From Escallonia rubra (lineage: Eukaryota > Streptophyta > Magnoliopsida > Escalloniales > Escalloniaceae), in the NCBI GenBank assembly GCA_033065855.1, contig JAVXUO010002070.1:62001-126000 (forward strand): 64,000 nucleotides of DNA. The letters run 5' to 3'. Shown one piece after another: positions 40,663 to 62,304 of this stretch. Numbering within the stretch: position 1 is the first letter of the stretch; each line of letters begins with the position of its first letter. Position numbers and translations under genes: made by a program. Below the pieces are notes generated by a model, which saw nothing but the letters and a program-made list of their open reading frames with translations, made no database searches and was not told the DNA's origin.

Positions 40663-43154
40663 TCATGCAACTTTATAAGTTAATATATACAGCTCAAATG
40701 ATTCACGCAACATGATATTGCATTGAAAAGAAAAAAAGCAGTGTGTGAGATTGACTTCAAAATATACCCTTCTCTTAGCACAACTAGTTCGGTAATGGCC
40801 TTTCCCATGACAATATGCACAAGTTCTTTGTTTCTTTTCTTCTTTCGCCAATTCGATAGAAGATTTCAACCTAGTAGTACCTTTGGCGCCCCTTGGTCTT
40901 AATAGTGGCAGCAGGGTCACGTATAGAAATTTGATGCATATTTTCCATTGGAGAAACACATGTACTTGAACCAACTTGACTAACCATTTTGTAGCCAACA
41001 AGTTTCTCCATGTTGTTTCTTGCAGCTTGTTTTTCCAAGAAGCTACTAAGCCATGCATCAAACTCTAGTATATTTGGAGGACAATATCTTCCATTATCTA
41101 TTGCCTTTGAAAACTTTGCTCGAACAGACCACAACGTTAAAAGGCTTACTCCCTTTTCAGTTGAATGGCTACCGATCTCGTCCATTCGATCGCCAACATC
41201 TCCTAACTTATACCGAGCATGAATTTTCCACCTAGGCAAAATGTAATACTCAGGACCATCAGTTATTTCCTTTTTCTTTAATATATAAAGGATATGCTTG
41301 CATAATAATCCTGTCGTCTCAAACTTAGCACATGAACAAGTAGCCTGAACACTTTCGGACGAATAATAGTGAACTGTTTGCCAACTCTCCTTATCAACAG
41401 TTGTCAAACCCACCCTGTATGTTGTGACGTCGGGTTCCTTATTCAATGTTATGTGCAAACAGCTAACACTAGCATTCCATTCTTTCTTGAAGATCTCAAA
41501 CAAACTACAAGTATAGCATTCTCCGGCTGTTGCTTCAATTGGATGATCAAATGATAAGACTGCTCTGGAATTCATGGTCTTAAAATCTTCATCTTCCTCG
41601 GTATACCTTCGATTATAAACTGCTTTGTCATATTTCAAATCAATCATTCAACATGGTATTAGAATTCACATACTCGTCAAAAATTGAATGCATGGTTTCA
41701 CTTTGTCCACTCGTGGTCATGCTAGCAAAAAAAAGTATATTTGAGAAAAGGCTTTGCCCAATGTGCATGTAGGTTGTACATATTTTGATTCCACCAATTT
41801 TCTTTTAAGTCATACTTGTCATTCAAATCCACCCATCTGGCCTCAAATTCTTCAATAGTCTGACTTTTTGTCCAGTTGTTATAGGCTTCATGAAAGTCAT
41901 CATAACGACATCGTAAAGGTTGTAGATGTTCCATGACGTGCTTCTTAATGTGCCATGCGCAAAAACAACGCGGCGTATTCGGAGACATTTTTGCAATTGC
42001 ATTTCTCATTGCTCCATCTTGGTCAGTGATGATTGCAGTCGGGGGCCTCTCAAACATGCAACACAAAAAATGCTCAAACAACCACACAAATGTTGCCTCT
42101 GTCTCATCCTCCAATAATGCAGCTCCAAACAACACACACTGGTGGTGGTGGTTTACTCCAAAAAATGGAGCAAATGGCATCCTATATTTGTTAGTCATGT
42201 AAGTCACATCAAATACAATAACACCACTAAACTGTGCGTATGATGCCCTTGACCTTCTGTCAGCTCAAAAAGACTTCTGAGAGAACCATCTATAGTTAAA
42301 TCCACAACAAAATAATAATTGTTATCCAACGTGGCCTTCTCTTGAAAATGTTTAATAATCCCATAACATTCTTTTCCCACGTTATTTTTTCTTTCGGTGT
42401 GTATAATACTAGAACATTGTCTTGGAGTTATGTCAGCTTCTTCGCTGGGCTTCATCACATTCACAACCCTAGTAATCTGAGAAGCTTTTAGGCCATCATG
42501 GTTAAGGTCAGACACTAGAGACTTACATACATTTGTACGATGGTACTTACTATGAGAACGATGCTTGATTACCTTTGATGGAGTAATAGTGAGAGGATGG
42601 TTATGAACATCTTGAAACTTGCCGATAACCCACACTCCAAGCTTCTTTACAAAGTAACTTGCATCATCGCTTCACAACCAGTTCTCAAGTCCCTACAACT
42701 TTTTTCGTTCACATTCGATCTCTTGTCATCCAGTTTCTTGAAGCCTTCCTTATTGAACACGAGTTACCTCCTAACAATTGCACCCGTGGCCCTAATCTTA
42801 TGCACGTTGTGTTTGAGTACCAAAACCATTTAAAAGAGCATATTGATTGTAGAACTCATATGTCGTTTCCAACGTATCAAATATTTTTCCATCTATCTGT
42901 TGACTATCGAAATTGTCAAAATTTTCATAACCATCATTCTCTCTAGGCGTTCTAACCTCGTCATCACATTGTGAGAGGTCACAAACATCATCCACCTTAG
43001 GTTCATCACGGACATGAGTATCCGGAATATCATAATCAGTCAAACCTTCGGTCACATCAATTTCCTCAATCAACTGAAAGCTGTGTGAACCCAATGGTGT
43101 GCTTCCACTATGAGTCGTGTAATTGCACTGGAATTTGGTGGGGGAAGACAGCAT
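40663..43154 (-). pseudogene. FAR1-type Mutator-like transposase, decayed
   Basis: The order of domains on the minus strand is that of FAR1/Jittery transposases. An N-terminal frame (43154-42798) ends in the start of the FAR1 DNA-binding domain (TYEFYNQYALLNGFGT). A broken stretch continues it (42790-42640; NKEGFKK, RTGCEAMMQV). Next comes VWVIGKFQDVHNHPLT (42635) and a MULE catalytic core with FDVTYMTNKY (first Asp, about 42210) and ITDQDGAM (second Asp, about 42025). A SWIM zinc finger follows (41647-40871; CSCAKFETTGLLCKH) and a C-terminal zinc knuckle (CAYCHGKGHYRTSC, about 40800). Stops and frame changes occur between and within the domains, so it cannot make a full transposase. Neighbouring frames are pieces of one gene. 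Confidence 0.9.
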
Positions 43155-47659: not shown

Positions 47660-47823
47660 TACATATATATATATGTATGTATATATATATATATATATAT
47701 ACATAAATCTACATACATATATGTATGTATGTGTATATATATACACATACATACATATATGTATGTATAAATGTATGTACATGTATGTATATATATATAT
47801 GTATGTATATATATATATATACA

Positions 47824-47854
<31 letters not shown>

Positions 47855-47857
47855 GTA

Positions 47858-47897
<40 letters not shown>

Positions 47898-47929
47898 CAT
47901 ATACATACATATATATATATATATGTATG

Positions 47930-47998
<69 letters not shown>

Positions 47999-48030
47999 AC
48001 ACATACATACATATATATACATACACTACA
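47660..48030. repeat. (TA)n-rich microsatellite left of the giant element
   Basis: About 370 bp of TA, with TG and CA steps. All six frames are open for long stretches only because the repeat lacks stops; they encode Tyr-Ile-His strings and are not genes. Confidence 0.9.
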
Positions 48031-48317
48031 TGGGGGACGATATACATCCACTGGTGGATAATATCCACCAAACCGCAACTATTAGTTGCAACTATTAGTT
48101 GCGGTTGCTATCATTACTCCACGGTCCCACCCCCACCCCCACCCACCCCCGAACCGCAACAAGGAGTTGCGGTTCACTGTGCATGGCTGTCCTTTTGTCC
48201 TTCCTTTTTCTTTTTTGTCCTTTTTTATTATTTCTAGCTGAAAATAAATAGCCATAATTATTTCTAACTGAAAATAAAGTTCCATAAATTTTACAATAGC
48301 TTTACAATATACAAGGA

Positions 48318-49916
48318 TGTTCACAACCTATTCTGGACCGCACCCCGGGGTCCGCTAAACAATCCCAATGGTGCGACACGTCACCCATTTGGCGGTCAAC
48401 ATCGCTCAACATCATTGCTCGGTCAAAGTGCTCCGCGCCTCGAGCATCCGCAAGACGATCGAAAGTGTGCTCACCGCAAGGGGGTCGGCCACCCCAAAGG
48501 GGGTCGGCCACCGCAAGGGGGTCGGCCACCCCAAGGGGGTCGGCCTCCATCGCCCTGCGAAGGGGGGAACTTGCTGAGCGGCACTGACTTCTCGCTCCAA
48601 CAACACTCACACGCTATCTTCAGTAGCACGACGCTCTGTCGCAGGCTCAATCAAAGTGACGGGGCTCCGGCCCTCGCGGAGGGACGGGCTCGCAACCATG
48701 AAGCCCTCGCCGGCTCAATCAAACTGACGGGGCTTAAGCCCTCGCGACGGGACGGGCTCGCAACCATGAAGCCCTCGCCGGCTCAATCAAACTGACGGGG
48801 CTCCGGCCCTCGCGGCGGGATGGGCTCGCAACCATGAAGCCCTCGTCGGCTCAATCAGACTGACGGGGCTCCGGCCCTCGCGGCGAGACGGGCTTGCAAC
48901 CATGAAGCCCTCGCCGGCTCAATCAAACTCGCGGCAGGACGGGCTCGCAACCTTAAAGCCCTCGCCAGCACAATCAACCGGGGGCTCCGGCCCTCGCGAG
49001 CACAATCAACCGACGAGCTCCGGCCCTCGCGAGCACAATCAACCGGAGGCTCCGGCCTTCGCAACAAGGATGGGCTTACAACCCTAAGGCCATCGCCGGC
49101 ACAATCACCTGACGGACTCACGGGGGGCTCCGGTCGTAGTGCTCCGGCACGAGGACCCCTCGCCACGGACTCTGAGTATCAAGCTGTGAGCATGTACGCT
49201 CATGTTATCATTGATCATCGACACCGCTAGGGCAATGAACCGCGAGTCACTCCGGGATGGGAGCAGGTCCTCGGAGGGCATCGTGTCCGGCACGCCTGAC
49301 AGTTGGCTGCAGAGGCAACCCTCACCGCTGCCAGGATCTCGGCGCGTCTCGTGACGGATCTCATGGGATTCAGTAAGGGCTTGGACTGGAGGCTGGGGAA
49401 CGGGCTACTCTGACCATGCTACCGCAGTGTGGTCAGTCTCCTCAGACAGGCAGAGGGACGCTGCAAGGGCAGGGCGGCACGAACTCGGGGATCGGCAATC
49501 CGACGGACAATCAATACTGTGGGACCCCCTAACACGTGTCGGCTGATGACACGCGCATATTTGTGCCTATATATAGTGGATTCTGGAGCTTATTCAAAGA
49601 CTTCTCCCTCATTTCCACATTTTACTTTCTCTCTCTAAAACCCATTCTCTTTGGAGTTCTAGTGAGAGAAACAGATTTGGACCCCTGACATCGGACTCTT
49701 GACGCTGCACCCTTGACGCGGACTGTCGACCGCTAGCCCTGTTCGTCGTCACCCTGCCTGCGCGGCGCTGCCAGCCCTTGCGACCTGTCTGGGGAGCCTT
49801 GCTCTCAGCCTTTACTCCATCCTTGCTGTCTCCCACTTTGTCTACTTGGAAGCCAACGCAGACTGCATCCTTTGTGGCATCTCACGTGGCATGCGAACCA
49901 TCTTTCCTCGGCAACA
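48318..49916. mobile_element. Solo LTR inserted in the left TIR
   Basis: It begins TGTTCACAACC and ends CTCGGCAACA (TGTT...AACA ends). AAGGA occurs on both sides (48313-48317 and 49917-49921). The right TIR, which lacks it, shows the empty site (ACAAGGATAATACAG in reverse), so start and end are certain. There is no internal region, primer site or second LTR, so it is a 1.6-kb solo LTR, probably of a Ty3-type element. A TATA-like CTATATATAG lies at about 49567. A shorter relative lies at 29580. The intact duplication suggests it is younger than the giant element. Confidence 0.85.
48475..49060. repeat. Tandem repeats inside the solo LTR
   Basis: Four copies of a 17-18-bp unit (GGGGGTCGGCCACCCCAA) at 48479-48545 are followed by about five copies of a 68-bp unit containing CTCAATCAAACTGACGGGG and ACGGGCTCGCAACCATGAAG (48640-48960). 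Then come about three copies of a shorter derivative with GCACAATCAACCG (48965-49050). The ORFs here are by-products of the repeats. Confidence 0.75.
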
Positions 49917-51828
49917 AAGGATAATACAGAAATTAAAATCAAAAGTTAAAAAGTGTCGAAATCAATTTAAAATCGTCTGTTTAGCTAAATCAAATGCGAT
50001 ATGGATAATAATAGTAAATCAACTCTAAAAATTACAAAACTGAAACTGAGTTGTCTTTGTGATACAAAAACATTACTGAAATTTTTCCATAATTTAATAT
50101 GATTTTTAAAGGCTCTTTACAAATTTTAAAAGAACTGAAATTACAGAAAATATTAAAAATACCAAACGATATCAGAAAAATGCGAAATTTTAACAGTAAT
50201 TCTAATATTATCCTATGAAACTTCCTGTAAAGTTTGGAAAATTTTCAACAAGTGCACGATATCCAACAGTTTGGGCCCTTTTTTTCTTTTTTTTTCTTTT
50301 TTCGTGGGCCCCCACCCTTTTTTCTCCCCCACCCCTCCCCCCCCCCTTTCTCCCCCAACCGCAACTAGGAGTTGCGGTTCCCTTGGTGTCCTTTTTTTCG
50401 TGGCCCCCCCCTTTTTTCCTTTTTTTTTTCTTTTTTCGTGCCCCCCCTCTCCCCGAACCGCAACTAGGAGTTGCGGTTCCCTTCATGTGGCCCCTAATTT
50501 TATTTTCTTTCCTTTTTTGTCCTTCCCCATTTTCTTTTCCCTTTTTGTTTTGTCTATTGTTTTGTCCTTTCCCCCTTTTTTTTTGTCCTTCTTCCCCATT
50601 TTCTTTTCCTTTTTTGTCCTTCCTTTTTTATTTTGTTTTCCTTTTTTTGTCCTTCCCCATTTTCTTTTCCTTTTTTGTTTTGTCCTTTCCCCCTTTTTTT
50701 TGTCCTTCTTCCCCATTTTCTTTTCCTTTTTTGTTTGTCCTTTCTCCGTTTTTTTCGTCCACCCCCGAACTGCAACTAGAAGTTGCGGTTCACTGTCCTT
50801 CTCTTTTTTGTTTTTTTAATTTCTTTTCGTGTCCTTTTTTTGTCTCTTTTTTTTCTCCTTCCTTGTGCGTGGATAGTTGCAGAGTTTCTTCGCAGCCTTT
50901 GACGCTGCCATTTTTTTCTTTCTTCACAGCCTTTGACTCTGCCATTTCTTTTCTTTTCTTCACGGCTTTTTGACTAACTACTGCTCATTCACGGACATAA
51001 TTTTTCTGTCTTCTTACGTTTTTACAAATCGGGGTATTACATTCGAACGATTCCAAAATAGCAATTTTTTAGGGTGTCAAAATTAAAAAAAATTTCACAA
51101 ATTTATAAAAAATAGCTAGAGCTAGATTTTTCCAAAGTGCAAAAAATAGACCCTAGTTATTTTTAAAATATCTGTATCAGGTAAAAATTTCAGATTTTTC
51201 CAAAGACTGGAAAGGAGTTAACTGATACGCGCAACCTTGTAACTTTGCAGTGTAATTTAAAATATCAAACTAGCGCGATTTCGAGCGAAACTTTTATGAG
51301 AACCCTAGGATATTGGGAAGTTCCATTTCCTAGGAATTCGGGCCATTCTGAAGCCGTTAGTTATTTTTTTGGCCGAACGGCCTTTTAAGCGCTCGATCCG
51401 GACACCGGTTCGGGATTTTTGGGCGAAACTTTTGCAAAATACTTTTTAGATCAACAATGATTTCAGGAAGCTTAAAATCCCATGTCAAAGCACTTTCGAG
51501 ATTTTCTGAAGTCAGGGGCATTTTGGTAATTTGCCACCCCATGAGGGGTATTTTGGTAATTTTCCTGTTAAAGTTTTTCAAAGGACTTCTTAGTCCAGAA
51601 ATGTAATTACAACACCTGAAATGTTGTTTTGAAGTTGATTTGGGGAGTTAGGGTAATAATGAACCCCCGGGGGCATTTCGGTAATTTGTCGCTCAGTGAG
51701 GGTATTTTGGTAATTTAACATTATATAAATTTTCCGAATGACTTTTTAATAATTTTTATTTATTTTTATTTAATTCTATGACTTATTGAGAATGATATAA
51801 TTTTTATTTTTTAGATTTCAGTATAAAT

Positions 51829-53394
51829 ATGGATGCAACTGGAGGAAATATTTTTTCCGAAGATTCTGATCCACCTTACCTGGGTCAAGTTTTTCAAAGA
51901 CTGGACGAAGTTGAAGCATACTATAGAGCATATTCGAAAATGATAGGTTTCGGTATTAGAATTAAGACGACTAGAAAACGGGCGAATACAGATCAAATTT
52001 GTGGAAGACTATTTGAGTGTCATAGAGGAGGACCGCATGTACCCCGGTTGTTCGGATCAGTGACGAAGGGCCATCAAGACAAAGAAAGCGGGACACATTT
52101 CCGGGAACCGGCTGCAAGGCCCATGTGTATGCAGTACAACGGAAAAATGAAAACCAATGGGTTGTGACGGGAGTGGATTTGACCCATAATCATCAACACC
52201 GACAAATAGGCACGGCTCACAGGGAACTAATATTTACAATGGAAACCGGGTTTGTTAATTGCAACTGTAAAATGTTTGAGCATAAAGGTATACTTTGTCG
52301 ACACGTGTTGAGGGTTTTTAGCGCCAAGAATACTAGTGAAATCCCTCCAGAGTATATCTTGGATCGGTGGACGAAGGAAGCCAATAGAGTCCACGGTCAT
52401 ATTCCTTACGTGCCTAATGTTTCAGTCGATTTCGAGCAATCTGAGACGCTGCGATATAATCACCTTTGTAACATCATGCACGGTTTATCAATGGATGCAG
52501 CGTCAACATTTGATGGGTACAGGTATCAAGTTGAAGCAGCCGCACGTGATAAGGCTAAGCATGCACAGTTTAGGATGGCATTACCAGAAAGACGGGACCC
52601 TCGGACGACTCCAGTCGATAGATTCAATCGAGCTTCACAGCCAGTCATTGACAGCACTAGTGTAACGACCCGGTCCACGGCCCCACCACAGGGCATTGCC
52701 TCCCTCAAAAGAGCTAGCCAAGTAAGTACTTATGAGTTCATAGGCAGGGTCTTATAAGACCAATCGCAAACTCTCCCACAACCGATGTGGGATATTACAA
52801 TCTCCCCACCTTATTCCTTAGCGTCCTCACTAAGGCTCGATCACACATAGCCCAGAATCTTCCTCTCTAGCCAATGTGGGATATACCCAGCTCACCCTTC
52901 GTTGCCCCAACCATCCTCTTGATGTGGGATATACCCGGGCTTGCCTTCGTTTCCCCCAACCATCGGCAACCCGACTGGATAGCCCAGCCCGAGCTTTCGA
53001 GAGTCGGCTCTGATACCATCTGTAATGACCCGGTCCACGGCCCCACCACAAGGCATTGCCTCCCTCAAAAGAGCTAGCCAAGTAAGTACTTATGAGTTCA
53101 TAGGCAGGGTCTTATAAGACCAATCGCAAACTCTCCCACAACCGATGTGGGATATTACAACTAGCCTGCAAGGTGAGGAGAACGACATTTTTGATCCAAT
53201 TATTTCTCAAACAAAAGGGCGAAAACGAGCAATACGTATGAAGAATCCGATTGAAGAAGCAACGGGTCAAAAAAAATTGCGAAAGTGTGCGTTGTGTAAT
53301 AAGATGACCGATCATGACAAGATAAATCCTATAAAGTGCTAGGTATCGAACCTGGCAGTGTGGTCGAGGAGGACAATGATGAGGAAGAGTGTTA
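51829..53394 (+). pseudogene. FAR1-SWIM protein (transposase derivative without catalytic core)
   Basis: The frame opens at 51829 (MDATGGNIFSEDSD) and soon enters a FAR1 DNA-binding domain (EVEAYYRAYSKMIGFGIRIK ... CKAHVYAVQRK ... GVDLTHNHQH). One frame change falls within that domain (between about 52020 and 52105). Instead of the roughly 300-residue MULE core, the text goes straight to TAHRELIFTMETGFVNCNCK and the SWIM finger (CNCKMFEHKGILCRH, about 52258-52305). The region continues to DSTS at 52660, where a TRIM interrupts it, and resumes after 53164 with a zinc-knuckle-like CALCNKMTDHDK. An acidic end (EEDNDEEEC, stop at 53394) lies one frame away. It could have bound DNA or a partner but could not catalyse transposition. 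Its gene starts about 260 bp inside the left TIR, like a mudrA gene. Confidence 0.8.
52661..53159 (-). mobile_element. TRIM (miniature LTR retrotransposon) in the FAR1-SWIM gene
   Basis: Two direct repeats of 139 bp (52661-52799 and 53021-53159) differ at only a couple of sites. They begin and end TG...CA in either reading and are flanked by ACTAG (52656-52660 and 53160-53164). Next to the right LTR is the complement of TGGTATCAGAGCCGACTC (53001-53018), an initiator-tRNA-Met type primer site, so the element points to the minus strand. The left side of the inside gives a purine-rich tract. It has no coding capacity, as is normal for TRIMs; near-identical LTRs suggest a young insertion. It lacks the 5S-like LTR text of Cassandra. 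Confidence 0.92.
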
Positions 53395-53509
53395 GGATTA
53401 ATGTTTCAGTTGTATAAATTGAACTTTTATAATGTTTATATTTGTGATTTGGTTTGTGAAATCTTTAATTTGTGATTTGGTTTGTGGATTATTGATATTT
53501 TTGGAAGGG

Positions 53510-53890
53510 CCTATTCAGGGACACTTTACCGCCCAATTCTTAGCTTGCGAAAAAAGTTGTAATTTTTTTTAACTCATTACACCTCAGGCACGCTAGTTAG
53601 CCCATTTCTATGAATTTCGGCGAAAAACGAGACAAATTATTTTTTGAGTTTTCTTACGACGCCCCTATTCGCGCACACTTTAGCGCCCATTTCTTAGCTT
53701 GCGAAAAAAGTTGTAATTTTTTTTGTCACTTTTTTTTTTCACTCATTGCACCTCAGGCACGCTAGTTAGCCCATTTCTATAAATTTCGGTGAAAAACGAG
53801 ACAAATTATTTTTTGAATTTTCTTACGAGGCCCCTATTCGCGCACACTTCAGGCACATTAGGCACGCTAGTTAGCCCATTGTCCAAAATC
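53510..53890. repeat. Tandem repeat between the two convergent genes
   Basis: A unit of about 155 bp (CCATTTCTTAGCTTGCG, AAAAAGTTGTAATTTTTTT, CTCAGGCACGCTAGTTAGCC, AAAACGAGACAAATTATTTT) occurs at about 53511-53660 and 53664-53829, with a partial third copy to 53885. It sits between the 3' ends of FAR1-SWIM and PMD-C48. No gene is seen here. Confidence 0.8.
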
Positions 53891-53977
53891 ATTCTAAAGT
53901 AATAATAAGGAAAATTCAATTTGAAATCTTAAGATCCAAAATCGAACAATACTAATAATAATCCATACGGACGCCAA

Positions 53978-56900
53978 CTACATCTCTGGGGAATGGTAAG
54001 GAAGGCGCCTAGCTATACCCTTTTTCAGCTCCCAGGCTATCTGATATCTAAACGTCAATGCATCCCTTCGAGACCACGACGTATTTTCGAGCACATCCGA
54101 GCGAGCTATGTAGTCCATGTACTTGAGGACGTAAATCCCGCAATCAAGACTGTTATATTGCTTTGGTCGGTTTTGTATCATCACGACCGTCCAAGGCTCT
54201 ATGATTGTTGAGCTCGTGATGGCTTCCCCCGTAACATGTCAGCACACTAGTGGAATGATAGTAGTCTGCATCCAACAGTAAAAAAAGTTATCAAGCCTAC
54301 TTAACAAGAAGAATAGACTATGAGCGAAGCTCAAGAAATATAAACTAACCTCCGCATTGATGTACGTGGAGTATATCTCCGCCAGCTGCCCACCAGGTCC
54401 ATCTTCCATTAGGCTATCATATAAGTGGACCGTTTTGTTCGCTGGATGGAGAACTAATAGGAAGAAGTGGCACCCGTGAAGACAAGGTATCATGATTAGG
54501 TTTGGAAAAGATGCATGACATTGATTGTCCGAGTTCAATAAGGCAAGCACGTTTGCAGACGGTTGCCATGCACCCTTGCTTGTCCCTCGCATCCTCCTCG
54601 ATGCTGTGAAGTCATTCATGCTATTCACCAAGAGGTTGACTATAAAAGAGGGATACATGTTGAGCTTGAGAGTTTTGGGGGGGGGGGGATTATTACTTAG
54701 CTCTCTAACACGGAGCAGATCTATGTAAGCGTCCATGCCCCAGTTCGAAATATCTGTGTCCAGCACCAACAGTCTCATATCAGAGTGAGCTACGACTCCT
54801 GCAATAGGAAAGTCAGTTGAATCGACGGGCTCATGCCCGAAGTAATGCCGGTCGATCCACTCCCGTTTCGTCGGACTCAATGGCTTCGTCGGTTGTCCTT
54901 TATCCGACCGGATGCTTGGGCGCGACGCCTGGAATCCTACTTGACTCTGGCGCTGAGAGTCGTACACGTAAGTAGGCAAGCGATTAGACGGCTCCCACAC
55001 CTGACTCTGGGGTTGAGAGTCGTACGGGTCAGGAGGCAAGCGACTAGATGGCTCCCACACCTGACTCTGGGTTGAAAGTCGTACGCATCAGGAGGCAAGC
55101 GACTAGACGGCTCCGACACCTGACTCTGGGGTTGAAAGTCGTACGCGTCAGGAGGCAAGCAACTAGACGGAAATCGCACATGACTCTGGGGTTGAGAGTC
55201 GTACGGGTCAGGAGGCAAGCGACTAGACGGCTCCCACACCTGACTCTGGGGTTGAAAGTCGTACGCGTCAGGAGGCAAGCAACTAGACGGCTCCGACACC
55301 TGACTCTGGGGTTGAAAGTCGTACGTGTCAGGAGGCAAGCAACTAGACGGAAATCGCACATGACTCTGGGGTTGAGAGTCGTACGGGTCAGGAGGCAAGC
55401 GTCTAGACGGCTCCCACACCTGACTCTGGGGTTGAAAGTCGTACGCGTCAGGAGGCAAGCAACTAGACGGCTCCGACACCTGACTCTGGGGTTAAAAGTC
55501 GTACGCGTCAGGAGGCAAGAACTAGACGGAAATCGCACATGACTCTGGGGTTGAGAGTCGTACGCGTCAGGAGGCAAGCGACTAAACGGCTCCCACACCT
55601 GACTCTGGGGTTGAAAGTCGTACGCGTCAGGAGGCAAGCAACTAGACGGCTCCGACACCTGACTCTGGGGTTGAAAGTCGTACGCATCAGGAGGCAAGCA
55701 ACTAGACGGAAATCGCACATGACTCTGGGGTTGAGAGTCGTACGCGTCAGGAGGCAAGTGACTAGATGGCTCCCCTCGGTAACCCCGGTACGCAACACCA
55801 AATTTGTGAAGATCAGTCTTGTACCTCTCAATGGAGCTCTTCAGACTGTCAGGAGCATGCGCAACGTACCAGTCAAACTGTTCAAGCTGCTTGAACACCT
55901 CAGTGCCCTGGTCAACCTAAAAAACATGCATAGAAAAATCACCCTCGTCATTTCAGGCATGGTCGATAAGGTGCGCAAATAAAAATTGAAACAACAGTAG
56001 CATGACTTACAATGCTCAATGCCCAGAACTGGTCATAGACCTCACGTGGCACATATGATGGCTGTCTCACCTGTGAAGGGCGATTCACCCTCGTGCGCGT
56101 CACGTTGAGAAACCATTTAAGGTAGTCCTCGATACTGATGACGTCGTCCTTGAGCGATACAAGGCTACCGTACGTTTCTTGCCAAGTATTCCACTGTTCC
56201 ACCTCATCGCTCAACAAATGCAAGGCATCAAGCACCTCAAATTTCGGAAGCTGACGACTCCTATATGGCCGGATGTCTACAGGGGGTTTTGGTATCCCTT
56301 GTAGATAGCCAGCTTGCCTCATAGCTCGATCGGGCATCTGAAACTCACATACTTCGAAGTGAATAAGCGGCACCCGAACCAAACCTGCCAGCACGTACGA
56401 TACCGGAAGTTGCCAACACCACTCATCTAACCGATGCATCACCTTGCCATATGGCTGCCACGTCACCTGGGGTGCATCCAGCATATCTAGTTCCCCCCGA
56501 TAGAACTGTAGATGGTTGTGAGGGTTTACCCGTCTCTTCCGGTTAGTCTCCAGCCCCCAGGCCCACACCCTAGGCCATGTCTCATTGGAATATTCCCGCG
56601 GTTGTGGACGACCCGTGGGTAGCCTCTCGTAAGACCAATCCTGTGAATGCAAACATTATATGGAATAAGTAATTAATCACGAATATATTGACACGTCAAA
56701 ACAAGAATATAAATGCTCATACCTGTAATAGAGTCAGGCAGGCGACAATAGACTTGGCACCAATTCTCGTAGCCTTATGCAGTGCTCGATATAGGTGCGC
56801 AAGAACATCTGAACCCCACGAATACGAGTATACCTCCTCAAGATCCTCAAAGAACACTATATACTTCGGATGCACCGTGTTTTTCGAATGCGTCGGAAGT

Positions 56901-57454
56901 AATATAGCTCCAATAATATATAGAAGGAATGCCTTCGTATACGTCACGAAATCATGATGCGTGTATTCATCCGGTAGCTCGCCGTACTGCTCTCTCAGCC
57001 ATTTAAGTTTGATGCCGTTTGTTGTGAGAGCTTCCTTTGGAATTTTCGAAAAATACTGCCTAGCCATATTCTTTATGGATGTAGACGTTTTGCTCAAAGT
57101 AATGGGTTTGCCGTGACATGGGATTCCAAGTATAAATCCGACGTCCTCTAATGTAATTGTCATTTCACCAAACCGGAAGTGAAATGAGTTCGTCTCGCTC
57201 CTCCATCGTTCAACTAGAGCGGATATAAGGTAATCGTCGTCTCGAGACAAAATTCCGGAATCGGTGAACATAGCTAAATTTTGACGGTATAGTAGTTGCA
57301 TTTGTTCCTCGTTCAGTACCCACTCTTCGAGGTGACTTGTGCTTTGAAGTGTTTCCAAAACACCCCTCTCGACACCGTCAAATACGTACCTCGCGATGTG
57401 GTCATCGTCATCGTATAGGATTGATGTATCATGAGGTCCGGGATTGAAATACAT
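53978..57454 (-). pseudogene. Plant mobile domain - repeat array - Ulp1-like C48 protease fusion
   Basis: Four GT-AG exons: 57454-56723, 56640-56011, 55916-54350 and 54265-53978. Exons 1-2 (454 codons) are an aminotransferase-like plant mobile domain as in MAIN/MAIL1: NPGPHDTSILYD, ERGVLE, DYLISALVERWRSETNSFHF and FGEMTITLEDVGFILGIP, then WAWG and VMHRLDEWCWQLP. Exon 3 carries fourteen 20-residue repeats and then the start of a C48 peptidase with LHGCHFFLLVLH (catalytic His) and VHLYDSLMEDG (Asp). Exon 4 has KQYNSLDCGIYVLKYMD (Gln and catalytic Cys). The expected product is about 1070 residues. This copy is broken: the array lacks one base near 55520 and one near 55070, and exon 4 has a TGA eight codons after the acceptor. 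The ATG lies about 480 bp inside the right TIR. Ulp1-like genes in Mutator-like elements are known (KAONASHI, CUMULE); its cellular role is unknown. Confidence 0.85.
54960..55775 (-). repeat. Fourteen 60-bp repeats coding for 20-residue units, with 180-bp order
   Basis: Each unit codes on the minus strand for a variant of EPSSCLPPDAYDFQPQSQV. Units come in three kinds by their first residues (RFP, SEP, WEP) and these follow each other in a fixed order through most of the array, making a 180-bp higher-order repeat. Units are 85-98 percent alike by eye, so the array expanded recently. Two units are 59 bp, which breaks the frame. The array lies between the plant mobile domain and the protease, where a linker would be. 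Confidence 0.9.
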
Positions 57455-57929
57455 ATCTGTAAGAACAAAATATAATCGTAAACCAACTTAGCGTCCATAA
57501 TATTTACATTCCAAAAATATAACTGGATCTTAAACCTAGCTTACCAACACGTTAGCAATAGTCATTATCTCATTATTTCAATGTATTAAAACAATTCCTC
57601 ACTTCTCACAACTCCGAACGCTTTATTATTCTACTTCCCTAAAATTTAGAGCCAATGTGGCAATTTACCAATATACCCCCCGATGCCCGCTACACCACCA
57701 ACACCACAAAACCGCTTTAAAATCACTTTTTAACTGTATTACGTCAATTATATACCAAATATTTTCTCAGGATATTTTAAGGGGGAAAGTTACCAAAACA
57801 CCCCCAACTTATACAAAATACCCCCTGACAGCCATCGCCCCAACAAACATCTCAGAACAACTGGAAAAAATAACTTTCCGGGTGTCTTACACCCTTTCCC
57901 GAACTAAAAGTCATTTGGAAAATTTATAT

Positions 57930-59780
57930 AACGGGAAAATTACCAAAATACCCCTCATGGGGTGGCAAATTACCAAAATGCCCCTGGCTTCAGAAAATCT
58001 CGAAAGTGCTTTGACATGGGATTTTAAGCTTCCTGAAATCATTGTTGATCTAAAAAGTATTTTACAAAAGTTTGGCCCAAAAATCCCGAACCGGTGTCCG
58101 GATCGAGCGCTTAAAAGGCCGTTCGGCCAAAAAAAATAGCTAACGGCTTCGGAATGGCCCGAATTCCTGGGAAATGGAACTTCCCAATATCCTAGGGTTC
58201 TCATAAAAGTTTCGCTCGAAATCGCGCTAGTTTGATATTTTAAATTACACTGCAAAGTTACAAGGTTGCGCGTATCAGTTAACCCCTTTCCAGTCTTTGG
58301 AAAAGTCTGAAATTTTTACCTGATACAGATATTTTAAAAATAACTAGGGTCTATTTTTTGCACTTTGGCAGAATCTAGCTCTAGCTATTTTTTATAAATT
58401 TGTGAAAAAAATTCTAATTTTGACGCCCTAAAAAATTACTATTTTGGAATCGTTCGAATGTAATACCCCGATTTGTAAAAACGTAAGAAGACAGAAAAAT
58501 TATGTCCGTGAATGAGCAGTAGTTAGTCAAAAATCCGTGAAGAAAAGAAAAGAAATGGCAGAGTCAAAGGCTGTGAAGAAAGAAAAAAATGGCAGAGTCA
58601 AAGGCTGCGAAGAAACTCTGCAACTATCCACGCACAAGGAAGGAGAAAAAAAAGAGACAAAAAAAAGACGAAAAGAAATAAAAAAAACAAAAAAGAGAAG
58701 GACAGTGAACCGCAACTTCTAGTTGCGGTTCGGGGGTGGACGAAAAAAAACGGAGAAAGGACAAACAAAAAAGGAAAAGAAAATGGGGAAGAAGGACAAA
58801 AAAAAAGGGGGGGAAAGGACAAAACAAAAAAGGAAAAGAAAATGGGGAAGGACAAAAAAAGGAAAACAAAATAAAAAAGGAAGGACAAAAAAGGAAAAGA
58901 AAATGGGGAAGAAGGACAAAAAAAAGGGGGAAATGACAAAACAAAAGACAAAACAAAAAGGGAAAAGAAAATGGGGAAGGACAAAAAAGGAAAGAAAATA
59001 AAATTGGGGGCCACATGAAGGGAACCGCAACTCCTAGTTGCGGTTCGGGGAGGGCGGGGGGCATGAAAAAAGAAAAAAAAAGGGAAAAGGGGGGGGGGGG
59101 GGGCACGAAAAAGAAAAAAAGGGCCCAAACTGTGGATATTGTGCACTTGTCGAAAATTTTCCAAACTTTACAGGAAGTTTCATAGGATAATATTAGAATT
59201 ACAGTTAAAATGTCGCATTTTTTTGATATCGTTTGGTATTTTAAATATTTTCTGTAGTTTCAGTTCTATTAAAGTTTGTGAAGAGCCTTTAAAAATCATA
59301 TTAAATTATGGAAAAATTTCAGTAATGTTTTTGTATCACAAAGACAACTCAGTTTCAATTTTGTAATTTTTAGAGTTGATTTACTATTATTATCCATATC
59401 GCATTTGATTTAGCTAAACAGACAATTTTAAATTGATTTCGACACTTTTTAACTTTTGATTTTAATTTCTGTATTATCCTTGTATATTGTAAAGCTATTG
59501 TAAAATTTATGGGACTTTATTTTCAGCTAGAAATAATTATGGCTATTTATTTTCAGCTAGAAATAATAAAAAAGGACAAAAGGAAAAGGAAGGACAAAAG
59601 ACAAAAGGACAGCCACGCACAGTGAACCGCAACTCCTTGTTGCGGTTCGGGGGTGGGGGTGGGGGGGATGGGGGGTGGGAGTGGGGGGTGGGGGTGGGAC
59701 CGTGGAGTAATGATAGCAACCGCAACTAATAGTTGCGGTTTGGTGGATATTATCCACCAGTGGATGTATATCGGCCCCCT
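57930..59780 (-). repeat. Right TIR of the giant element
   Basis: Inverted partner of the left TIR, uninterrupted. It holds four palindromic modules (58707-58731, 59022-59046, 59624-59648 and 59718-59740) against five on the left; the one at 50357-50379 has no partner. The purine-rich strand (58640-59120) mirrors the pyrimidine-rich left arm. Long frames with Phe/Ser/Leu strings across it are artefacts of composition. The next 480 bp (57455-57930) hold the probable promoter and leader of the PMD-C48 gene. Confidence 0.9.
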
Positions 59781-59841
59781 ACATATATATATATATATAC
59801 ATATATATATATGTATATATATATATACATATATATATATC

Positions 59842-59886
<45 letters not shown>

Positions 59887-59913
59887 GTATATATATATAT
59901 ATATATATATAGG

Positions 59914-59960
<47 letters not shown>

Positions 59961-60007
59961 GTATATATGTATATACATATATGTATATACATATATATAT
60001 ATATATA
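59781..60007. repeat. (TA)n microsatellite between the giant element and the 1.7-kb element
   Basis: About 227 bp of nearly pure TA with occasional TG/CA steps. It is shared by two elements, one on each side. Confidence 0.9.
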
Positions 60008-60359
60008 GGAAGTTGATCCGTTGAGAGCGTTAGCAAAATAGGAGAGAGCGTTAGCAAAATAGGAGAAGTTGCAAGCGTGATCTGGCCGTCCATCCTGAAA
60101 GATGGACGGCCCAGATCGCGCCTTTTTCGAATACTGTCAGTCGTCCGCGATACAGTATAGCGGACGGACTTTTTTACCTTTTTGCCCTCTGACCCGTCCG
60201 CTATACTGTATTGCGGACGGTCCAAATTTTTTTTTTACGTTTTTTTTAAGTTCGTCCGCTACATAATGTAGCGGACTATTTTTTTACAAAAATAGCCTCC
60301 TGTTCCATCCGCTACAATATGTAGCGGAGGAGTAGGCAGGCACACATTTGCGGTTGACA

Positions 60360-60690
60360 TGATTTACTGAAGGGCCACACCCTATTGTCCTTTCCCCCCA
60401 TTCTTCTTCTTCTTTTGTTCTCCAGAAACCATTCTTTGATTTGCTGAAGGGCCACAACCTATTGTCCTTTCCCCCCATTCTTCTTCTTCTTTTGTTCTCC
60501 AGAAACCATTCTTTGCTGAAGGGCCCCACCCTATTGTCCTTTCCCCCCATTCTTCTTCTTCTTTTGTTTTCCAGAAACCATTCTTCTTCTTCTTCTTCTT
60601 TTGTTCTCCAGAAACTTACCCGCGTAAAGATGGGCCACCCCATTGTCCTTTCCCCCCATTCTTCTTCTTCTTTTGCCTTGCCTTCAATTT
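60360..60690. repeat. Four 75-bp repeats inside the 1.7-kb element
   Basis: Units with CTGAAGGGCCACACCCTATT, GTCCTTTCCCCCCATTC, TTCTTCTTTTGTTCTCCAG and AAACCATTC recur from about 60368, 60443, 60517 and (partial) 60600. Frames on both strands run through it because of the repeat and are not credible genes. Confidence 0.8.
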
Positions 60691-61279
60691 GCTTCTTACA
60701 CTCCACTCTTCACACTAATATACACACAGGTACCCATTTACAAATCCAATGTCACATTCCATACTTACTACACACTACACCATTTTGTAACTCTCTAATA
60801 TACACATACATATACTCATATGCATATAACCAATTTCTCCAACTCCCACAGCTAGACCCATCATCTTCTCCTTCATTCACTAAATTTTTGTTTCCCTCCA
60901 AGCTACTCCCCTTGCTTCATTTTTCTTTCCAAAGCATAATCTTCTCAACCCAAGTCACAGCAAAGCAGCCACTGCTGTATTGTCCAATCTACACCCACTG
61001 CCTCACGGCAGTGGGTCCTTTTCCTGTCAACAGCATACTTGACAGCCTCCCCAAGGCTGTTTCTCTCCAACCTTTTGGCTCCGATACACTTACGCAAGGT
61101 CCCCGTACCCAGCCGTACTCCACCACGGCTGCCATCACTCCACGACCTCACCATGCACCAACATGACACGGCTAAAATTCAGCCTTCCCTTACCCATGCA
61201 TACCATTTACATTATGTGTTACATCCAGAACCCATAAAAGAAATCATGGTGAGAGAAAAGAGAGAGAAAGCGTCATAAA

Positions 61280-61339
61280 TTGATGAGAGATAGAGAGAGA
61301 GAGAGAGAGGAAATAGAGTGTGTCAGAAATTGACGAGAC

Positions 61340-61375
<36 letters not shown>
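61280..61375. repeat. (GA)n microsatellites
   Basis: Two GA tracts (61287-61310 and 61344-61371) separated by text that repeats around them (TGTCAGAAATT, TGAGAGA). Confidence 0.85.
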
Positions 61376-61747
61376 TGTCAGAATTTTAATGAGAGAAAGG
61401 ACTGGAAAAAAAAATAATGCCAACCGCAAATGTGTGCCTGCTTACTCCTCCGCTACATAATGTAGCGGATGGAACAGGAGGCTATTTTGTAAAAAAATTG
61501 TCCGCTACATTATGTAGCGGACGAACTTAAAAAAAACGTAAAAAAAAAATTTGGACCGTCCGCGATACAGTATAGCGGACGGGTCAGAGGGCAAAAAGGT
61601 AAAAAAGTCCGTCCGCTATACTGTATCGCGGACGACTGACAGTATTCGAAAAAGGCGCGATCTGGACCGTCCATCTTTCAGGATGGACGGCCAGATTCGC
61701 GCTTGCAACTTCTCCTATTTTGCTAACGCTCTCAACGGATCAGCTCC

Positions 61748-62083
61748 ATATATACATATATATACATATATATATGTATATATATGTATATATATACATA
61801 TATATACACATATATATGTATATATATGTATATATATACATATATATACATATATATACGTATATATATGTATATATATACATATATGTATGTATATACA
61901 TATATATACATATATATAGATGTATATACATATATATACATATATATACATATATATATGTATATATATGTATATATATACATATATATACATATATGTA
62001 TATATACATATATGTATAATATATATATATATACATATATGTATATATATGTATATGTACATATATATGTATATGTACATATA

Positions 62084-62130
<47 letters not shown>

Positions 62131-62260
62131 GTACATATATATGTATATGTATATATATATATGTATATATACATATGTATATATACATACATATATATAT
62201 ATATATACATATGTACATATACATATGTATATATATATATATATACATATGTATATATAC

Positions 62261-62291
<31 letters not shown>

Positions 62292-62304
62292 CATATATAT
62301 ATAG
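61748..62304. repeat. (TA)n-rich microsatellite right of the 1.7-kb element
   Basis: About 555 bp of TA with regular TG/CA steps, the longest such tract in the window. All long frames in it are stop-free repeat, not genes. Confidence 0.9.

Follow-up and report, generated by a model that had tools for sequence, protein, structure and literature searches.

Structure of the element and its two genes

The window, by which we mean the whole stretch of 64,000 nucleotides of Escallonia rubra DNA analysed here, carries a copy, no longer functional, of a Mutator-like family that has two genes and a high copy number. This defective copy (48032..59779; 11,748 bp) is inserted in a TA-rich microsatellite and has its inverted ends and the terminus GATATACATCCACTGG in common with sister copies. 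The element ends in GGGGGacGATATACATCC at 48032 and in the inverse at 59779, at most 1 bp away from the limits (48031..59780) proposed by an earlier sequence-only reading of this DNA. That reading had also described inverted ends (TIRs) of about 1.9 kb, and these were recovered by blastn. The right TIR, on the minus strand, spans 57903..59779 (1,877 bp), and the left TIR, on the plus strand, spans 48032..51594, being about 1.9 kb long when its insertion is discounted. Their main pieces are 96% alike (96.1% identity between 50404-51594 and 57903-59098, 96.5% between 49917-50291 and 59108-59481); the outermost piece reaches 84.6%, in an alignment block that takes in the flanking TA run. The left TIR is interrupted by a TG..CA insertion (48318..49916; 1,599 bp) with a 5-bp TSD, AAGGA, at 48313-48317 and 49917-49921. 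We read it as a solo LTR because the empty site is present in the sister copy C857 (L026), whose long aligned blocks are 94-99% identical to the window.

TA-rich microsatellite forms the target flank on the left (47660..48031) and on the right (59780..60007), and as the insertion lies in such a run, the TSD of the window element itself is unreadable. Relatives inserted outside TA runs show a TSD of about 9 bp, as for the Mutator superfamily: it is a perfect ATTAAACAA in C17 and matches at 8 of 9 positions in C2186, the TIRs of which are 2.95 kb long and 99.7% identical. Among TIR-defined copies, TA-rich runs directly adjoin 14 of 17 outer ends. At the family level, a MULE-type core, TIRs and a TSD of about 9 bp are thus all present, as in the Mutator superfamily.

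The two genes are convergent, as had been noticed from the sequence. Gene A (51829..53342, plus strand) is a remnant in which Pfam matches and comparison with L015, L017 and L026 reveal a FAR1 domain (51919-52196), split over two frames by a frameshift, joined to a SWIM domain (52254-52331), the MULE catalytic core being deleted. It also contains a TRIM-like insertion (52661..53159; 499 bp) with direct repeats of about 140 bp that are 98.6% alike and a TSD of ACTAG, and its empty site is found in C857. The sequence-only reading took the family's first gene for a DNA-binding transposase derivative, which is not supported: loss of the core is a defect of the window copy, and C857 retains the 1.27 kb of transposase absent from it. 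A domesticated-style FAR1-SWIM regulator is ruled out by the same comparison, gene A of the window being a deletion product. In C1232, an open frame of 777 aa encodes a FAR1-MULE-SWIM transposase (PF10551 at 116.1 bits, plus FAR1 and SWIM). All 13 relatives keep the motif ITDQD. TFDTTY is conserved in all but two, i.e. in 11, the exceptions being C857, with SFDTTY, and C407, which is misaligned.

Gene B (53978..57454, minus strand) consists, by splice contexts and Pfam, of four exons (57454-56723, 56640-56011, 55916-54350 and 54265-53978) encoding a plant mobile domain (PMD), a repeat array and a Peptidase_C48 domain. PMD (PF10536) matches in two exons of the window at 156.7 and 63.5 bits (E 1.2e-45 and 2.5e-17; cut-off 34.9) and Peptidase_C48 at E 2.4e-9; in a relative, a profile search placed C48 C-terminal to PMD at 65.2 bits. 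A DUF1985 profile gave E 2.3e-7 and 31.3 bits with the window gene, under the cut-off of 35.1, and 25.0 bits in L017. The array in exon 3 (54942..55774, minus strand; 60 bp x 13.9 by TRF) encodes 20-aa units (..EPSSRLPPDAYDSQPQSQVW..). Gene B of the window is disrupted at three points, by a 1-bp deletion in this array near 55518, by another near 55068 and by a stop at 54239-54241, where TGA replaces the CGA of relatives; unbroken in C482 (L017), it encodes an 894-aa PMD-repeat-C48 protein. The repeats previously seen between the two 3' ends correspond to a noncoding tandem repeat at 53510..53859 (53510-53691 and 53664-53859, 86% alike).

Linkage, selection and motif arrays across the family

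Two independent searches, for the transposase and for PMD, were compared over the best 150 places of each. They gave 49 convergent pairs, 4.3-6.4 kb apart, about one pair being expected by chance; expressed otherwise, 50 MULE places on the list have a listed PMD exon no more than 12 kb away, and 49 of these are convergent. The C48 part of gene B was found downstream of the transposase at all nine loci examined (of the best 150), and PMD too at eight. The genome contains eight further TIR pairs, and both genes, variously decayed, were present in all four whose insides were read; no third gene was found in the element copies read. These counts support the view that the two genes move together as parts of one self-contained family, and on them we reject a nesting accident. 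The pair is retained across clades that are about 50% alike. Copies combining a full FAR1-MULE-SWIM transposase with the fusion gene, which the sequence-only reading had suggested looking for, exist as regards domain content. In C1232 the transposase frame is open and gene B has one stop, in C482 gene B is unbroken and the transposase frame is interrupted some 30 residues short of its end, and in C17 the transposase frame is open and the aligned gene B codons are without a stop.

Gene B is under selection. In six pairs of copies, w was below 1 for PMD in six cases and for C48 in five, and the constraint on PMD was about that on the transposase. The catalytic residues of Peptidase C48 (Ulp1/SENP) were compared in 14 copies, of which C857 and C1088 are without the region and C1637 retains Gln and Cys only. 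His, Asp, Gln and Cys are all kept in 10 of the 11 copies retaining all four positions; in the remaining one, C1121, Tyr replaces the catalytic Cys. In the gene B tree, a 20-row group that includes gene B (support 100/100) stands apart from 22 rows, many of them named MAIN-LIKE 2. The sister clade in this tree includes, nested within it, three proteins of Escallonia rubra. P0240 is identical to C131 at up to 97.6% over 41 residues, and P0001 has its best match in the genome at 92%.

Palindromes are a further feature of the family. The palindrome ACCGCAACnnnnnGTTGCGGT lies at 48153..48173 in the left TIR, which also holds copies at 50358..50378, 50457..50477 and, with one mismatch, 50769..50789; those of the right TIR are at 58709..58729, 59024..59044, 59626..59646 and 59719..59739. 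All palindromes of the window are thus inside the TIRs, and across the family such arrays are subfamily-specific, with motifs of 19-23 bp.

Predicted fold of gene B and its proposed function

The PMD half of gene B has a significant predicted-fold match to VANC21, a plant protein that protects transposons from silencing by the host, in its DNA-bound structure (9lnj), and the fold search of PDB listed no other significant chain; PDB sequence searches did not find VANC21. The Heracleum PMD-C48 protein P0243, whose AlphaFold model is poor (pLDDT 46.8), was left out of the fold search. A BFVD fold search returned one unnamed match (E 4.8e-5).

We think it probable that the product of gene B is of VANC/KIU-like kind and acts sequence-specifically against silencing, with a tail of SUMO-protease type, and that it is carried by a TIR-bearing, TA-microsatellite-targeting Mutator-like family. 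In this scenario, gene A would supply a FAR1-MULE-SWIM transposase acting with the TIRs by cut-and-paste, with the window's clade inserting in TA microsatellites. The PMD of gene B, with its predicted VANC fold, would bind the palindrome arrays of its own subfamily, in TIRs and noncoding DNA, and the fast-changing peptide repeats would perhaps tune specificity. The C-terminal Ulp1-type protease may then act on silencing factors located at the element, stripping them of SUMO or of a similar tag, and both promoters, expected at the inner TIR ends, would stay active. The countering of host silencing, already mentioned as a possibility in the sequence-only reading, is made more plausible by the predicted VANC21 fold.

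Several other explanations need to be considered. That gene B is just a passenger, i.e. a transduplicated fragment or a product of nesting, seems to us extremely improbable; gene capture is frequent among MULEs, and the window's gene B is disrupted and evolves almost neutrally inside its clade, but the best 150 of 4,270 first-look candidates are at 93-100% identity, and the convergent order, the w values and retention of the pair across divergent clades all argue against it. Gene B might instead be a transposition helper analogous to mudrB, or a SUMO-based regulator of transposase stability, with no role in silencing. Its location is that of mudrB, as it converges with gene A and begins just within the other TIR, and its C48 domain is nearest by sequence to SENP2 among solved structures (E 4.1e-8). 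However, VANC21 is the sole significant PDB chain listed for the PMD half, and an autonomous TA-targeting MULE with a single transposase ORF, AutoMuTAnT, is described in part of PMC4486113, so a second gene may be dispensable for mobility of this kind; we find a helper role unlikely.

It is comparably improbable, in our estimation, that gene B is a decoy or partner which interferes with the host MAIN/MAIL1-PP7L silencing without sequence-specific DNA binding. MAIN and MAIL1 are PMD proteins needed for TE silencing, and it has been suggested that PMDs which are captured or reside in TEs counteract silencing (passages of PMC5418596 and PMC8616336), but gene B falls in a tree group separate from the rows rich in MAIN-LIKE 2, and subfamily-specific arrays suit sequence-specific action better. 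A different question concerns the palindromes, which the FAR1-type transposase might bind as a dimer, gene B using other contacts. Mutator transposases bind TIRs, which is where all palindromes of the window lie. However, many of those in C131 and C17 are found not in the TIRs but in the stretch that separates the two genes, and the exact-arm counts differ strongly (15 in C131, 17 in C17, two in C1569) despite closely related transposases (gene A dS 0.16-0.17). This assignment is therefore possible, though somewhat doubtful.

Earlier work has left open what the plant mobile domain does, and has proposed that it serves transposons against silencing (parts of PMC8616336 and PMC5418596). We tentatively suggest, with rather less confidence than for the anti-silencing role of gene B, that PMD and VANC domains may form one superfamily. 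Sequence-specific anti-silencing might then have a second, widespread branch made up of TE-borne PMD proteins, here Ulp1-tailed, with every subfamily self-marked by its palindrome array, and MAIN/MAIL1 might represent the host's side of the same superfamily. Such a relationship could account for the recurrence of PMD, DUF1985 and Ulp1 in plant transposons and would connect MAIN/MAIL1, which act in silencing, with a fold by which transposons oppose it. In the open-licence literature, we found no paper joining the plant mobile domain with Ulp1 or C48 in transposons, or PMD with DUF1985. The predicted match to the VANC21-DNA structure opens the way to a direct test of whether a PMD recognises specific DNA sequences and, if so, those arrayed in the element that encodes it.

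Relation to known transposon systems

MuDR has two convergent genes driven from its TIRs. The earlier description of the present element as built like MuDR holds for the layout only, position and orientation of the two genes being matched; gene B here contains PMD and C48. TIR-MULEs with an Ulp1-like gene include CUMULE. In these and in grapevine ULP-containing TIR-MULEs, an Ulp1-like gene likewise lies downstream of the transposase, in either orientation, whereas the descriptions given in part of PMC2528002 mention no PMD. MULEs of grasses and Amborella that captured PMD-C also carry a PMD, with anti-silencing use suggested, but there it is fused to the transposase (sections of PMC5418596), whereas here it forms, together with C48, a gene of its own that converges with the transposase gene.

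VANDAL21 with VANC21 (Arabidopsis) resembles the present family in being a MULE with a transposase and a second protein, to which the PMD half is similar in predicted fold, and in having noncoding motif arrays and peptide repeats (passages of PMC5735166). VANDALs are termed non-TIR MULEs in part of PMC13317346, and the present element, having long TIRs, is therefore not a VANDAL. Moreover, its gene B has PMD, no DUF1985 above cut-off and a C48 tail, and its palindromes are 19-23 bp long, in contrast to the 9-bp motif of VANDAL. In KIU/KAONASHI, a VANC-type domain is joined to Ulp1 in a MULE, with the Ulp1 gene reverse to mudrA (parts of PMC2528002 and PMC13317346); by these published descriptions, KI-MULEs are without TIRs and VANC-type, whereas the present element has TIRs and PMD.

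AutoMuTAnT, as described in part of PMC4486113, is 4,873 bp long with one ORF and no second gene described, whereas the present family has two. As this single-ORF MULE targets TA, and C2186 and C17 carry gene B outside TA runs, we do not favour the idea that gene B directs insertion to TA. Insertion in (TA)n is shared with MuTAnT and SaTar (parts of PMC4486113 and PMC5907723), the GGGG terminus with MuTAnT, and arrays of different elements with microsatellites between them with SaTar (PMC5907723, in part).

The two-gene family and its insertion sites

The Mutator-like element at 48032-59779 carries two convergent genes between terminal inverted repeats (TIRs): gene A (+ strand), with FAR1 and SWIM domains, and gene B (- strand), combining a plant mobile domain (PMD; E 1.2e-45 in exon 1 and 2.5e-17 in exon 2), an array of 13.9 units of 60 bp coding for 20-aa repeats, and a Peptidase_C48 domain. 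The right TIR spans 57903-59779 and aligns to the left arm in main pieces at 96.1% and 96.5% identity; a 1,599-bp solo LTR (48318-49916; target site duplication, TSD, AAGGA) interrupts the left arm. TA-rich runs lie at both outer ends.

The sequence-only reading held that this gene pair travels together as a family, and the two-gene family is indeed real and large. From the best 150 of 3,309 candidate places in a MULE-domain search of the genome, nine were fetched with their surroundings, namely the six most like gene A and those on contigs C1569, C131 and C17, picked for their long open frames (the high-listed C1112 and C2846 lay outside this set). A gene-B C48 lies downstream and convergent at all nine, and the PMD is also present at eight, being lost in C1637. 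When the MULE list was crossed with a separate search using exon 1 of gene B from the C482 copy (best 150 of 4,270 candidates, 93-100% identity), a PMD place was found at most 12 kb from 50 of the 150 listed MULE places, about 0.95 pairs being expected under even scatter. Among these listed places 49 of the 50 pairs are convergent, with a spacing of 4,263-6,406 bp (median 4,774). The exceptional one, on C1569, pairs the transposase with the PMD of a neighbouring element; C1569's own PMD was found among the fetched loci. Crossing part of the MULE list with sister-clade matches (plus one further place) added seven convergent places and two places with other layouts. As genome searches report best scorers only, unseen pairs are no evidence of absence. 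About 40 contigs tie at 427.7 bits for the sister-clade gene-B exon 1, which points to a very recent burst.

A genome search with the right TIR gave nine TIR pairs, one of them that of the window, as well as three single ends. Copies with both genes were again found: four of the eight other pairs were read internally (C857, C1088, C269 and C407, with C1334, C860, C1254 and C1253 outside this set), and all four hold both genes, variously decayed. Some TIR pairs are allelic or assembly duplicates, because C407 and C1254 have a common flank. A TA-rich run directly adjoins 14 of the 17 outer ends read; as for the other three, the right end of C857 is truncated, C269 stops at a contig end, and at C861 a TA run is present but is not counted among the direct junctions. 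Of the copies from other clades, C17 is flanked by a perfect 9-bp TSD, ATTAAACAA, and C2186 by one matching at 8 of 9 positions; the TIRs of C2186 are 2.95 kb long and 99.7% alike, and both copies lie outside TA runs.

The window element abuts a non-autonomous sister-clade element (60008-62303; terminus GGAgcTGATCCgTTGAGAGCG; TIRs of about 320 bp at 97%), which bears eight GTCCGCTA-type palindromes in two stretches, 60143-60329 and 61448-61633. The two elements share a TA run and a second one lies on the far side, forming a SaTar-like array. Locus L038 (G000:C861:3540-3810), where a C2186-type-like terminus faces the TA run beside a window-clade TIR copy, is a further array of different elements. 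The inner 580 bp of the window TIR recur at about 87-92% identity in head-to-tail arrays (about 600 bp) on C202, C1412, C485, C1579 and others. A remnant of another MULE transposase lies at 41195-42270 (- strand), with 48% identity to the family gene A in its better-matching part.

Decay of the window copy and coding capacity of its relatives

The window copy is dead. Its sister, the C857 copy (locus L026; 94-99% identity across long aligned blocks), has empty target sites both for the solo LTR (AAGGA) and for a 499-bp TRIM in window gene A (TSD ACTAG), and it contains 1.27 kb of transposase missing from window gene A. In the window, FAR1 is split over two frames, the gene-B array has two 1-bp deletions with a change of frame, and exon 4 of gene B has TGA in place of the relatives' CGA. 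Given this deletion, the insertions and the frame breaks in comparison to C857 and other relatives, the earlier view of gene A as a DNA-binding transposase derivative has to be abandoned, as this state is an accident of the window copy.

Copies with both a full transposase and the fusion, which the same reading proposed to seek, exist as regards domain content, but C1232 and C482 each remain intact in one gene only: in C1232 a frame of 777 aa contains FAR1, MULE and SWIM, and gene B has one stop, while gene B of C482 has four exons and 894 aa (PMD 239.6 bits, C48 65.2 bits) and its transposase frame breaks about 30 residues short of the end. In C17 the transposase frame is open and the aligned gene-B codons are without a stop, as read from the alignment rather than from a gene model. 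The C48 His, Asp, Gln and Cys are complete in 10 of the 11 copies retaining all four positions, and SENP2 is the closest solved C48 relative by sequence (E 4.1e-8).

Selection and possible exchange between lineages

The nonsynonymous/synonymous rate ratio (w) was bootstrapped for 8 of 91 copy pairs. In six pairs outside the window clade, non-independent as copies recur between them, w was 0.32-0.44 for gene A, 0.32-0.47 for the PMD, 0.50-0.77 for C48 and 0.52-0.78 for the repeats, the upper 95% limit falling below 1 in six, six, five and three of the six pairs, respectively. Two pairs within the window clade gave 0.35-0.43 for gene A, 1.16-1.28 for the PMD and 1.32 for C48 (one pair), with gene-B intervals that include 1; PMD values in the remaining window-clade pairs ranged from 0.48 to 1.46. 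These ratios indicate that gene B, and the PMD most of all, is retained long-term as a working protein and is decaying in the window clade.

Between C1569 and C131, synonymous divergence (dS) climbs from 0.17 in gene A to 0.31 in the PMD, 0.47 in the repeats and 0.71 in C48, which suggests mosaic exchange between lineages at the element centre. For C1569 against either C131 or C17, dS is several-fold higher at the C48 end of gene B than at the transposase.

Palindrome arrays, the putative role of gene B, and its relatives

The palindrome ACCGCAACnnnnnGTTGCGGT occurs eight times in the window (at most two mismatches), four times per TIR and nowhere else, and was absent from 100 shuffles. The C482 locus (L017) has its own palindrome, GGGATTTTTCGTCAAAAAATCCC, at 10 sites spaced about 311 bp apart inside two groups (at most three mismatches); that of another clade, GCGATTGGn7CCAATCGC, recurs in 34-bp steps, and locus L024 has 25 copies of GTCCGCTAn7TAGCGGAC (at most two mismatches), located in the space separating the genes and on the 5' side of gene A. 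Altogether, a recurrent palindrome arm (at least three) was found in 10 of 14 stretches compared, with a maximum of one in plain shuffles; those of C1569 belong to the neighbour element, leaving nine stretches with arms of their own. The four without are C1637, C1088, C269 and C407, the fetched insides of the last three omitting most of the TIRs.

According to PMC5735166, VANC21, the Arabidopsis VANDAL21 anti-silencing protein, acts, by ChIP and gel shift, on a motif that forms arrays in the noncoding DNA of its own family; the same paper describes variable tandem peptide repeats in VANC proteins, proposed as specificity determinants. The gene-B family is alike in both respects, having motif arrays in the element's noncoding DNA and peptide repeats. 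Either gene A or gene B is a candidate for the palindrome binder. Most likely, the gene-B PMD would bind the arrays of its own element, the bound protein would block or reverse silencing, and C48 would strip SUMO from silencing proteins. Anti-silencing was proposed earlier for MULE-captured PMDs (PMC5418596) and for TE-borne PMDs (PMC8616336), and VANC is joined to Ulp1 in KIU genes (PMC13317346). The kind of element, a MULE with an anti-silencing-type second gene, is already known; what is new is a TIR-bearing, TA-targeting one that has PMD plus C48. To specialists, the surprising part is the predicted fold link between PMD and VANC.

The transposase-PMD pairing may be old in campanulids, because P0243, a PMD-C48 fusion from Heracleum, groups in a tree of 48 proteins with the eight MULE PMDs and 11 other rows (20 rows, support 100/100), separately from 22 rows, many named MAIN-LIKE 2, and because P0120 (a transposase relative, 46%) and P0242 (a PMD relative) each derive from a 7,311-base ENA contig, probably one and the same. 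Three Escallonia proteins are nested among the MULE rows, inner placements being unsure owing to several long branches.

Other PMD loci were also seen. Within 19 kb at G000:C922:1278226-1296817 lie four PMD genes in tandem, each in a single frame (643-689 aa open), and these are the top PMD matches among those listed for the genome. More than 20 contigs have a PMD match in two parts (1-181 and 238-347) inside one open frame of 596 or 685 aa; several of these matches have identical scores, and they may represent another transposon class carrying a PMD. An unnamed viral-structure entry of 805 aa, BFVD A0A890CAY5, matches the PMD model with E 4.8e-5.
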